A program made the translations under genes and the position numbers. Below are positions 39,532-41,581 of a stretch of 64,000 bases of DNA, piece after piece. Positions within the stretch are counted from its first letter, which is position 1, and each line of letters starts with the position of its first letter. A model generated the notes under the pieces. The model did no database searches. It saw nothing but the letters and a program-made list of their open reading frames with translations, and was not told where the DNA came from. This stretch comes from Porticoccaceae bacterium (GTDB lineage: Bacteria > Pseudomonadota > Gammaproteobacteria > Pseudomonadales > Porticoccaceae), in contig JAQXEN010000044.1 of NCBI GenBank assembly GCA_029250825.1, positions 124,001-188,000 on the forward strand, given 5' to 3'.

Positions 39532-39951
39532 ATGAAGGCGACAATTAAGTGGGTAGACGGCGTGATGTTTCTCGGCGAATCTGGCAGTGGCCACTCTGTG
39601 GTGATGGATGGCGCTGAAAGTCAGGGTGGTCGCAATATGGGTGTTCGACCAATGGAGATGCTGTTGCTGGGGCTAGGTGGCTGCGCTTCATTCGATGTAA
39701 TGAGCATGCTCGCCAAGAGTCGTCAGCAGGTGACCGATTGTCGCACTGAGATCGAAGCGGTGCGAGTTGATGCTGTGCCGGCGGTCTTCAGCAAGATTCA
39801 TCTGCGCTTTGTAGTTACTGGAACCAGCCTTAAAGAGAGTCAGGTTAAGCGCGCCGTGGAGTTGTCGGCTGAGAAGTATTGCTCGGCGTCGATAATGCTC
39901 GCCGCTGCTGGGGTTGAAATGACCCATAGCTATGAGGTGGTCGAGGCCTGA
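39532..39951 (+). CDS. OsmC family protein (YhfA-like)
   Basis: A 139-residue OsmC-fold protein with the family layout PMEMLLLGLGGCASFDVMSM (first reactive Cys) and SAEKYCSASIMLAA (second Cys), the pair that reduces organic peroxides in characterised members. ATG 39532 is chosen because GAGG lies 6 nt upstream. It is divergent from vfr, as in Pseudomonas, where vfr and an osmC gene also adjoin. True substrate uncertain for this subgroup. Confidence 0.9.
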   Translation: MKATIKWVDGVMFLGESGSGHSVVMDGAESQGGRNMGVRPMEMLLLGLGGCASFDVMSMLAKSRQQVTDCRTEIEAVRVDAVPAVFSKIHLRFVVTGTSLKESQVKRAVELSAEKYCSASIMLAAAGVEMTHSYEVVEA

Positions 39952-39991
39952 TCTGGCAGTTTCAGGAATATCTCTGGGGCTAAATTCGAGA

Positions 39992-40116
39992 CAAAAAAAA
40001 GGAGCCCAAAGGTGGGCTCCTAAAAATTCCTGAGAAAGTCTCAAAGGAAGGGGTAGGGGTAAAACGGTGTAAGACCTGCTAGGCAGCAAATCTTTAAAAC
40101 TCTGTGCAACTTCTAT
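39992..40116 (-). ncRNA. Candidate small RNA, about 125 nt
   Basis: A minus-strand transcript would start near 40116 from a good promoter and end at a terminator: GGAGCCCA (40001-40008) pairs with TGGGCTCC (40013-40020), followed on the minus strand by eight T's (39993-40000). The RNA has a C-rich open stretch (ACCCCTACCCCTTCC, from about 40062), a small hairpin (TGAGA/TCTCA), a U-rich stretch and the terminator. No ATG frame and no SD occur in it. Its 3' half resembles the 3' end of the neighbouring small-gene unit. The U8 tail suits Hfq binding. Not recognised as a known RNA family. Confidence 0.6.
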
Positions 40117-40122
40117 ACACAT

Positions 40123-40151
40123 ATAATAGAAATCTGCCTCCCATACTGCAA
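40123..40151 (-). promoter_or_regulatory. Promoter of the candidate small RNA
   Basis: The minus strand reads TTGCAG (40146-40151), 17 bp, TATTAT (40123-40128). The -35 box touches the end of the 45-bp upstream element shared with the small-gene promoter. Confidence 0.6.
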
Positions 40152-40193
40152 ATGCATTGTTTGCATCTTAGTCATACCATTTTGTAATAACCT
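40149..40193. promoter_or_regulatory. Upstream activator-type element, copy 1
   Basis: It begins with CAAATGCATTGTTTGCAT and ends with ATACCATTTTGTAATAACCT. The second part contains a T-N11-A dyad (ATTAC...GTAT on the minus strand), as in LysR-type binding sites. Relative to the predicted start it covers about -35 to -77. It matches copy 2 at 40551-40594 in both blocks, with a variable 7-bp middle. Confidence 0.6.
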
Positions 40194-40271
40194 TGTTTTA
40201 CAAGCTGCGAAGGCAATAGGCTCGAATATTTGCCATGGTCTAGGCCACTGAGCAGATAGAGTTTTTTAAGA

Positions 40272-40301
40272 TAAAAAAAAGGGGCCCTAGGATGGGCCCC
40301 T
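40272..40301 (-). terminator. Rho-independent terminator of the 40-residue peptide gene
   Basis: GGGGCCC (40281-40287) pairs with GGGCCCC (40294-40300); the minus strand then runs into eight T's (40273-40280). It is similar in form and flanking sequence to the terminator at 39993-40020. Confidence 0.85.
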
Positions 40302-40354
40302 ATAAAAGAATCCTATAGCAAGGATTAAGAGGGGTTTGGTGCGAAGCCGCTGAT

Positions 40355-40477
40355 TTAGTGGGTCAGCGTCTTATCGGAAGCTTTGAGTTTTGGTGCTTTA
40401 ACGTTCGCGAAGTCGTCTTTCGCAATTGCAGCACCCGCTAATCCAGTGAATCCGATCAGTATGTATACGAGTGTCAT
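40355..40477 (-). CDS. 40-residue secreted or membrane peptide
   Basis: ATG at 40477, TAA at 40355, with GGAG 8 nt before the ATG. The product starts MTLVYILIGFTGLAGAAIA, a hydrophobic signal-like segment with a plausible cleavage site after AIA, followed by a 21-residue hydrophilic tail rich in Lys and Asp and ending DKTLTH. It has its own promoter, a leader of about 40 nt and a terminator, so it looks like a real single-gene unit. No family is recognised. It is divergent from the LysR-type gene, which probably controls it. Confidence 0.65.
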   Translation of the reverse strand: MTLVYILIGFTGLAGAAIAKDDFANVKAPKLKASDKTLTH

Positions 40478-40524
40478 GGTCTATCTCCGTGTGTTTATGG
40501 GCAGTTCGTTGCCCTATGTGTGAC

Positions 40525-40553
40525 AATATACGCAGGCCTATGTCATAATCCAA
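40525..40553 (-). promoter_or_regulatory. Promoter of the 40-residue peptide gene
   Basis: The minus strand reads TTGGAT (40548-40553), 17 bp, TATATT (40525-40530); predicted start near 40518. Same geometry as the small-RNA promoter. Confidence 0.6.
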
Positions 40554-40594
40554 ATGCATTGTTCGCATTATTTATATACCAAATTGTAATGACC
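40551..40594. promoter_or_regulatory. Upstream activator-type element, copy 2
   Basis: It begins with CAAATGCATTGTTCGCAT and ends with ATACCAAATTGTAATGACCT, matching copy 1 at 40149-40193. It lies between the small gene and the LysR-type gene, ending 12 bp before the latter's ATG, so a bound regulator would also cover its own promoter or ribosome-binding region. Confidence 0.6.
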
Positions 40595-40606
40595 TAAAGG
40601 TAACCC

Positions 40607-41581
40607 ATGAATCTGCAAAAGTTATCACGCCTAGACCTCAATCTATTGGTTGCACTTCAGGCTCTGCTAGAAGAAAAAAGCGTAACCCGCGCGGCCCAGC
40701 GCCTGTTTATTACCCAGCCAGCCATGAGCAGAGTGTTACAGCGTCTGCGCCAGCAGCTGGATGACCCGCTGTTTACCCGCACCGGGAATATATTGGTCCC
40801 GACCCCCAAAGCGGAAGAATTACAGCTCAGATTGCCGATGTTGCTAGATGGTATTCTCGATATGGTCACTGATGGTGAGTTTGATCCGGCCAGTTATGTT
40901 GGTGAGATCACTATCGCTATCCCTGAATTTATTGCTATCTCTCTGGCATCGCAGTTGACTGCCCTGTTAAATAAATACGCTCCGGGAGTAATTCTGTCGA
41001 TCTCCAGTGAAACGGATTCTGTCGCCGGGGAGCTGTCGGCGGGGGTGCTGGATTTTGCCATCGATATAAAACGGGATATAACTGCTGAGGTGACCACTCG
41101 GCACTTGGCGATTTTCAGTCCTTCGATCTGGATGCGCGAGGGTCACCCGCTGGCTAAAAAAAGTCGTGTGACTCTAGATGAGATTCTTCAATATCCCTAC
41201 GTGCAGTACTATTTGCTGATTGCAAAGCGGGTAAGTGCTCGCACTGACGCGCGTTTTGATCGAGCTTTGCGGGAGCAGGGGCGTTATCGTTCCAAGGCGA
41301 TGGTCACTAATCAGCTAATGACGGCAATCGAAACCATCTGTGCATCGGATTGCTTAATGGTATCGGCGAAGTTTGGTTCTGGTATGGAGCGGGAACTCTA
41401 TCGGATTGTCACCAAAGCCTATCCGGATGATCTTCCCCACGAGGGCACAGTTCCCTTGGTGCTACTACAGCACAAGCGCACTCTGGGTTCGCCAATTCAT
41501 CAGTGGTTGTCGGAGAAAATTGTCGACTTGGCACGGGATATGGAAAATCCTCACGAGCCTCAGTCAATGCTCTTTGATTGA
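40607..41581 (+). CDS. LysR-type transcriptional regulator
   Basis: A 324-residue LTTR. The N-terminal winged helix is LDLNLLVALQALLEEKSVTR followed by AAQRLFITQPAMSRVLQRLR, with DPLFTRTGNILVPTPKAEEL typical of the LeuO/NodD/NahR branch. The C-terminal part is a periplasmic-binding-protein-like effector domain; ligand unknown. AAGG precedes the ATG by about 8 nt. It is divergent from the 40-residue peptide gene and shares a 130-bp control region with it. Auto-repression and activation of the two adjacent small transcripts are inferred from site positions. Confidence 0.92.
   Translation: MNLQKLSRLDLNLLVALQALLEEKSVTRAAQRLFITQPAMSRVLQRLRQQLDDPLFTRTGNILVPTPKAEELQLRLPMLLDGILDMVTDGEFDPASYVGEITIAIPEFIAISLASQLTALLNKYAPGVILSISSETDSVAGELSAGVLDFAIDIKRDITAEVTTRHLAIFSPSIWMREGHPLAKKSRVTLDEILQYPYVQYYLLIAKRVSARTDARFDRALREQGRYRSKAMVTNQLMTAIETICASDCLMVSAKFGSGMERELYRIVTKAYPDDLPHEGTVPLVLLQHKRTLGSPIHQWLSEKIVDLARDMENPHEPQSMLFD

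Follow-up and report, generated by a model that had tools for sequence, protein, structure and literature searches.

Two tandem units divergent from a LysR-type regulator gene in Porticoccaceae probably specify sibling small RNAs, one of them also encoding a peptide

What is specified by two short, similar units lying in tandem on the minus strand between an OsmC-like gene and a divergently transcribed LysR-type regulator gene? We address this question for a 64,000-nucleotide stretch of DNA from a Porticoccaceae bacterium (assembly GCA_029250825.1, contig JAQXEN010000044.1, positions 124,001 to 188,000), which we call the window and whose numbering we use. The source genome is 2.33 Mb, and the records that best match its LysR protein are from SAR92-clade/HTCC2207-group Porticoccaceae, with identity up to 98%. 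Our preferred answer, which we hold at a probability of roughly 70%, is that LysR activates sibling small RNAs (sRNAs) of the Hfq type, which use a C-rich seed to pair with ribosome-binding sites rich in G. In this reading, a dedicated LysR-type regulator would switch on two promoters that stand in tandem on the opposite strand, each complete in itself. The small RNAs made from them would act through their 3′ halves (open C-rich seed, hairpin, U-rich run, and T8 terminator); the seed would block translation by binding G-rich Shine-Dalgarno regions in target mRNAs, and the right RNA would additionally encode a 40-residue, probably single-span membrane peptide. From sequence we infer transcription itself, activation by LysR, Hfq binding, base-pairing, a role for the peptide, and the existence of a signal.

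The right unit ends in the best-conserved RNA module of the locus, which comprises the following:

40327..40335, minus strand: C-rich seed ACCCCTCTT, unpaired in the predicted fold and inside the conserved 15-mer region
40309..40326, minus strand: hairpin AATCCT-loop-AGGATT, then a U-rich run (alignment, fold, and covariation in sister genus g35)
40273..40301, minus strand: terminator hairpin plus T8 (fold, alignment)

The exact 15-mer ACCCCTCTTAATCCT precedes the terminator at all 34 genus LysR loci read, in 41 copies that belong to peptide and non-peptide units alike, and occurs in 13 of 16 further loci, none used for the motif (some genomes are counted twice). This constancy bears on an alternative that we consider improbable, namely that both units are mainly small mRNAs, or what is left of such mRNAs, with the peptide as product, the 3′ part as a stable terminator, and the left unit as a decaying copy. 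Such a reading gains from the clear purifying selection on the peptide and from the recurrence of similarly built peptide frames beside LysR in deeper relatives, but it does not account for an invariant 15-mer at loci whose peptide tails vary among genus members and whose terminator stems vary within A2, our alignment of 40 modules chosen by motif search. Nor does it fit the persistence of RNA-only units throughout the genus: four genus genomes and two loci of sister genus g23 have RNA only.

We built a covariance model from A2 and found matches to it in 34 of the 35 genus genomes. Across 112 family genomes it matches 69 (48 of 50 in the genus, three in g23, eleven in g35, and, weakly, seven from g29, g30, and g31); G077 (73% complete) has no module match. 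In g35, the hairpin stem shows compensatory changes (A-U to U-A, U-A to C-G); of 22 sequences folded, one (L114) keeps only three hairpin pairs. A hairpin, a U-rich run, and then a terminator whose U tail is long make up the layout of an Hfq-dependent sRNA; SgrS has a hairpin-plus-terminator layout for Hfq binding, according to an excerpt of PMC4021124. An Hfq gene was matched in 34 of the 35 genus genomes, including that of the window.

An earlier note on this DNA had described two tandem minus-strand units with a common upstream element, −35/−10 pairs separated by a 17-bp spacer, and hairpins running into eight T's, and we find each of these in both units, placed as it claimed. The top local alignment between left and right units, which corresponds to the upstream element, scores 48, compared to a mean of 18.1 (standard deviation, 2.2; maximum, 29) for 300 shuffles, and the terminator regions aligned by themselves score 41; the likeness far exceeds chance. 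The 3′ ends are indeed alike, as the note held, but unequally so, because the right-unit module is better conserved than the left. Both RNAs are predicted to fold more stably than shuffled sequence (z-score of −3.87 for the left and −3.71 for the right, with 0 of 200 shuffles equally stable in either case), and in both predicted folds the C-rich stretch is unpaired, in agreement with the open stretch that the note proposed.

The right unit carries, upstream of its module:

40485..40488, minus strand: Shine-Dalgarno GGAG of the peptide gene
40355..40477, minus strand: 40-codon peptide gene MTLVYILIGFTGLAGAAIAKDDF..., with one hydrophobic stretch (hydropathy; selection counts)

Selection counts identify the peptide frame as a real gene under clear purifying selection. 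Over codons 6-24 in 29 genomes, synonymous differences (pS) stand at 0.502 and nonsynonymous differences (pN) at 0.102, and the variable columns number 8/2/18 of 19 by codon position; codons 1-5 were dropped from this recount because frames had been chosen by their MTLVY start. For all 24 codons, pS is 0.48 and pN 0.082. These counts use 29 of 30 frames, the G007 peptide being omitted because it is interrupted by N. The peptide probably spans the membrane once, as judged from its hydropathy. It has no match near the cut-off in Pfam, NCBIfam, PHROGs, or PDB; sub-threshold matches were to COX14 (E = 0.83) and Pop8 (0.17) in Pfam, to PRK13682 models (0.0097-0.073) and MamG (0.049) in NCBIfam, and at 0.16 in PHROGs, with none in PDB.

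Because the right unit has one promoter and one terminator, its frame and 3′ module would share a transcript, and because its 3′ end is conserved better than any other RNA module of the locus, the unit is probably a dual-function RNA rather than simply a small mRNA: it joins a selected short frame to a conserved 3′ seed. The small mRNA proposed in the earlier note is thus a real small gene, but the description is incomplete, since the 15-mer is as constant as stated above.

The left unit and its flank are organized as follows:

39993..40116, minus strand: predicted sRNA of ∼124 nt without a conserved frame (fold, alignment of relatives)
40073..40092, minus strand: 5′ hairpin of the predicted fold, its sequence poorly conserved in relatives
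40048..40060, minus strand: double C-rich seed ACCCCTACCCCTT, unpaired in the predicted fold
40027..40049, minus strand: hairpin preceding the terminator (predicted fold; seen in the left-type alignment)
39993..40021, minus strand: terminator hairpin plus T8 (fold and RNAalifold)
39532-39951, plus strand: OsmC-like gene, the left flank of the two units

We aligned 22 of 23 left-type units, omitting that of G014, whose contig ends within it. Sixteen of the 22 contain no ATG, and the other six hold short frames that are not common to all. Relatives retain the C tracts (only one tract in some), the hairpin, and the terminator; the 5′ half is not retained. Comparison therefore favors the sRNA that the earlier note saw in the left unit. 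Its statement that the unit has no ATG holds for a transcript starting at ∼40116, but an ATG at 40122, just 5′ of that inferred start, opens a 144-codon frame (40122-39688, minus strand) antisense into the OsmC-like gene. This frame, at 39688-40122, is most likely a chance one.

Each of the 34 genus loci has two units in the region upstream of LysR, with reservations for G014 (contig end in the second unit), G007 (N stretches and a third unit), and G033 (second unit masked past its frame); judged from this genus-wide presence, the unit duplication is old. The number of units varies: the G007 locus, L065, has apparently three, two of them with an MTLVY frame start and with N stretches between, and G078 has three module matches in a row. 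The MTLVY frame is present at 30 of the 34 loci, in the LysR-proximal unit at 19 and in the second at 11. The four genomes that lack it are assemblies of 1.2-1.4 Mb (84-92% complete), each with two RNA-only units, and the LysR tree places them, with modest support (0.69 for the group, 0.26 for their inner position), among peptide-bearing genomes; this nesting is most simply explained by peptide loss. Conversely, the second units of G025, G027, and G031 have a weakened RNA module and retain the peptide. Peptide and RNA module are thus separable in evolution. Since some relatives keep the RNA without the protein, it is the RNA that looks like the essential product of the units.

That the left unit is a copy of an mRNA that lost its frame, as the earlier note suggested, is plausible: peptide-less genomes nest among peptide-bearing ones, and double-peptide loci occur in deeper relatives. 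Against a simple order of frame loss, there are also peptide units whose RNA module is weakened. Two of the double-peptide loci, L176 and L283 (G116, genus g33), have two tandem peptide frames of the GSAIA-acidic kind beside LysR; these may possibly represent the ancestral state of the duplicated unit.

Is LysR the regulator of both units? The relevant features are as follows:

40607..41581, plus strand: LysR-type regulator gene, 324 amino acids, divergent from the units (Pfam matches)
40544-40591, minus strand: upstream element of the right unit (sequence)
40576..40590, minus strand: upstream degenerate operator half, right unit, centered at about −65 from the inferred start and 22 bp from the main box
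40554..40568, minus strand: main LysR-type box, right unit, ATGC-N7-GCAT (T-N11-A), centered at about −43
40525..40553, minus strand: right promoter, −35 TTGGAT, 17-bp spacer, −10 TATATT; inferred start ∼40518 (sequence)
40142-40189, minus strand: upstream element of the left unit (sequence)
40174..40188, minus strand: upstream degenerate operator half, left unit, centered at about −65
40152..40166, minus strand: main LysR-type box, left unit, ATGCAAACAATGCAT, centered at about −43
40123..40151, minus strand: left promoter, −35 TTGCAG, 17-bp spacer, −10 TATTAT; inferred start ∼40116 (sequence)

The protein matches Pfam HTH_1 (E = 1.9e-18) and LysR_substrate (E = 4.6e-14). Thirty-four of the 35 genus genomes, its own among them, match it strongly, and these 34 match the intergenic DNA as well; G012 (71% complete) has a weak LysR match only and no 3′ module. 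In both units, the operator consists of two 15-bp sites whose centers are 22 bp apart (the consensus comes from 65 elements selected by a box pattern). The TGCATT box is kept in 33 of 34 genus second units, and this common operator lends support to the shared LysR control proposed in the earlier note. We scanned eight of the 35 genus genomes with the operator pattern ATGCANANAATGCATTNGNNNTATG, allowing ≤2 mismatches, and obtained 16 matches, every one at the LysR locus, compared to 0 for the reversed control (one G006 site is counted on both strands, G008 has a single match, and weaker sites would escape). HTCC2207 has two matches (control, 0). Because all 16 lie at the LysR locus, LysR looks dedicated to its RNA promoters in the eight genomes scanned.

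GcvA binds at gcvB two 15-bp inverted repeats centered at positions −65 and −43 relative to the sRNA start, according to an excerpt of PMC5002191. With the starts inferred here our operators have the same spacing, and by this analogy activation of both units is the likeliest role for LysR. An alternative that we think unlikely, if less so than the small-mRNA one, is that LysR represses the units, or that the boxes serve mainly autoregulation and the RNAs are driven by another signal. Autoregulation is common among LysR-type proteins, and the proximal box lies ∼40 bp from the LysR start; moreover, LysR may have other work, given six g35 loci where its gene persists with no unit beside it. The second unit, however, lies ∼440 bp from the LysR start and has its own box pair with equal spacing, and g35 units remote from LysR carry box-like promoters, which autoregulation would not need.

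Sister genera differ in arrangement. The two g23 loci read have a single LysR-linked unit with no peptide frame. In g35, the twelve units read, from nine genomes, have no LysR gene in their flanks (up to ∼2 kb each side), and G128 retains a LysR-linked RNA-only unit. By comparison of these loci, g35 units have moved away from LysR and kept box-like promoters, to which LysR presumably still binds.

Several observations weigh against our reading that LysR activates sRNAs whose C-rich seed pairs with ribosome-binding sites. At the six g35 loci mentioned above (L155-L160), neither an adjacent unit nor, in the ∼100 bp before LysR, a AATGCATT-type box is present. The earlier note had proposed loss of the left unit from relatives that keep LysR as grounds for rejecting its claim; within the genus no such loss is seen, but these loci go the other way, even though five of the six genomes carry modules elsewhere (E of 1e-9 or better in a whole-genome search, at places already known in g35), and two have the operator pattern ∼190 bp before a distant module. 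The sixth, G487, has a box and no module match. Within the genus, the second unit of G023 lacks the TGCATT box, and three of the 16 further loci (L129, L136, and L152) lack the exact 15-mer. Invariance within A2 is partly by construction because its modules were chosen by motif, and the non-terminator hairpin is itself invariant there within the genus. Hairpin covariation, a check suggested by the earlier note, is borne out by the compensatory changes in g35 but not in left-type units, for which the RNAalifold consensus recovered the terminator alone and not the middle hairpin.

Target searches also belong on this side. Perfect 9-nt seed matches before ATG in eight genomes numbered 20, compared to 6 for the reversed seed, with no orthologue common to two genomes; two of the 20 are the module's own antisense, and one place is listed twice. 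In five close relatives, 8-nt matches numbered 46 versus 18 reversed, an excess that a Shine-Dalgarno-like motif would give; we read 31 of the 46 rows (30 loci plus one). One TonB-receptor mRNA shares the 8-nt motif in two genomes, a pair recognized by eye; ordered by duplex energy, it comes third and seventh among 58. The receptor is present in 26 of 48 genus genomes and was not found, at the threshold used, in the four peptide-less ones. Its gene (G000:C40:522-1121, orthologues L313-L338) carries GGGG ahead of the start in 22 of 25 parsed cases, versus 2 of 57 crude window gene starts (26 orthologues were found, one was not parsed, and the second start codon was used for five). This lead is weak because it was found by motif search and the orthologues are related, so the TonB-dependent receptor mRNA is a doubtful candidate target. 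Two BLAST-paired sets of 8-nt targets were rejected because, in our judgment, they fall within frames that are longer or overlapping.

The seed scans established no conserved mRNA target, as would be expected if the C-rich module titrated a protein or another RNA, without pairing to mRNA starts. Two similar outputs of one regulator would also suit such a sponge. A sponge for CsrA is expected to present GGA motifs in loops, and here they lie in stems of the predicted folds; in addition, VcdR pairs with mRNAs through four consecutive cytosines, according to an excerpt of PMC8672173. We therefore think titration quite unlikely, only marginally less so than the small-mRNA alternative, and retain pairing of the seed with ribosome-binding sites as our reading.

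Beyond these genera, 28 of 35 more distant LysR loci have an AATRCATT box with a terminator at the proper distance, compared to 0 of 3,843 random places in the window; the set (L161-L196 minus L195, whose LysR is partial) is non-independent, many Porticoccus loci being near-identical. Among the loci that fail, L176 has the box and two peptides with its terminator farther away; L178 and L192-L194 have a terminator and lack the exact AATRCATT box; L172 and L179 fail otherwise. The box occurs at 0 of 6 Acinetobacter LysR loci. Deeper relatives encode, beside the same LysR, peptides of similar build, such as MIVPALTYVVLAITGLIGSAIAWEDL and MFIASMFGLYFALIGLIAWEDFQS, and we regard these as putative homologs of the window peptide by build and position, not by search score. 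In Halieaceae (L181-L194), a LysR relative stands divergent from a putative RNA that is conserved, contains CATCCAGGTCC in most cases, and has a AACCCGCC-type terminator; because this RNA differs in sequence, it is either the same RNA or merely of the same plan, and it may be a separate, undescribed sRNA family.

A second tier of 14 LysR upstream regions mostly lacks a complete unit. Box and terminator are present in G381 and G157, an altered box with a terminator in G464, a box only in G338, a terminator without a box in G232, G448, and G351, and a short frame alone in the second copy of G215; nothing was found in G142, G178, G205, G174 (contig end), or the second copies of G399 and G351.

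A degenerate extra 3′ module, L115 (G025:C49:3233-3299), lies behind an unrelated gene on a contig other than that of LysR, with no obvious box in the stretch read. The R1 matches in G101, G102, and G105 were discarded as unrelated terminators without the C-rich stretch. At gathering score, Rfam has no family in the window, and a permissive search of 39900-40700 returned five sub-threshold matches: mmgR (twice), ylbH, sbrA, and BjrC68.

Taken across Porticoccaceae, with the same plan in Halieaceae, these loci suggest a lineage-wide module, a generalization that we offer tentatively and at slightly less than even odds. LysR would have one to three sibling modular transcripts as its main direct outputs, each combining an sRNA tail with a tiny membrane peptide, with halves shed independently; one genus would have scattered its units and kept their box-like promoters, and the output would combine riboregulation with membrane micropeptides. 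If so, a common marine clade with cultured members such as HTCC2207 would possess an sRNA family not described before, one retained even in assemblies of 1.2-1.4 Mb. The units would form a natural series of intermediates from small mRNA through dual-function RNA to pure sRNA, making the origin of sRNAs from small mRNAs testable by comparison of sister species, and a LysR regulator with an apparently very small direct regulon would be helpful for identifying its signal. The titles and opening lines of abstracts that we searched in the small-RNA literature on SAR92, HTCC2207, Porticoccaceae, and Halieaceae held no account of a LysR-linked system; the kinds of parts are known, and in the literature searched we did not find their combination, spread, or modular gain and loss described.

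Among known systems, mmgR/suhB (RF00519) is the sole Rfam family to match both units in the permissive search, and we rejected membership because its scores of 23.5 and 17.4 bits are far under the gathering score of 41. GcvB, a single RNA, is not among the Rfam matches at either gathering or permissive score. SgrR is not a LysR-type protein. From excerpts of the papers concerned, four other systems share parts of the plan. In Rhodobacter sphaeroides, sRNAs CcsR1-4 are likewise linked to the mRNA of a small protein, ccaF1, at its 3′ part (PMC8625941), but this protein, CcaF1, is an RNA-binding one of the DUF1127 type, and processing of a single 3′ untranslated region, not separate promoters like those here, gives the RNAs. 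VcdRP of Vibrio cholerae resembles the right unit in its 29-amino-acid protein, its seed of four consecutive cytosines 3′ of the frame, and the terminator that follows; it differs in being repressed by CRP, and the main text of PMC8672173 does not mention LysR. In the SgrR-SgrS/SgrT system of enterics, the peptide frame also lies 5′ of a near-invariant 3′ pairing stretch, followed by hairpin and terminator (PMC4021124), and that stretch is also more widely conserved than the peptide (PMC8672173); here, by contrast, there are two sibling RNAs, and the window peptide matches nothing in the libraries searched. GcvA-GcvB of Escherichia coli similarly pairs a divergent LysR-type regulator with an sRNA gene, the operator centers at −65 and −43 agreeing with those obtained from our inferred starts; GcvA also controls gcvTHP (PMC5002191), whereas here the operator matches RNA promoters only, in the eight genus genomes.

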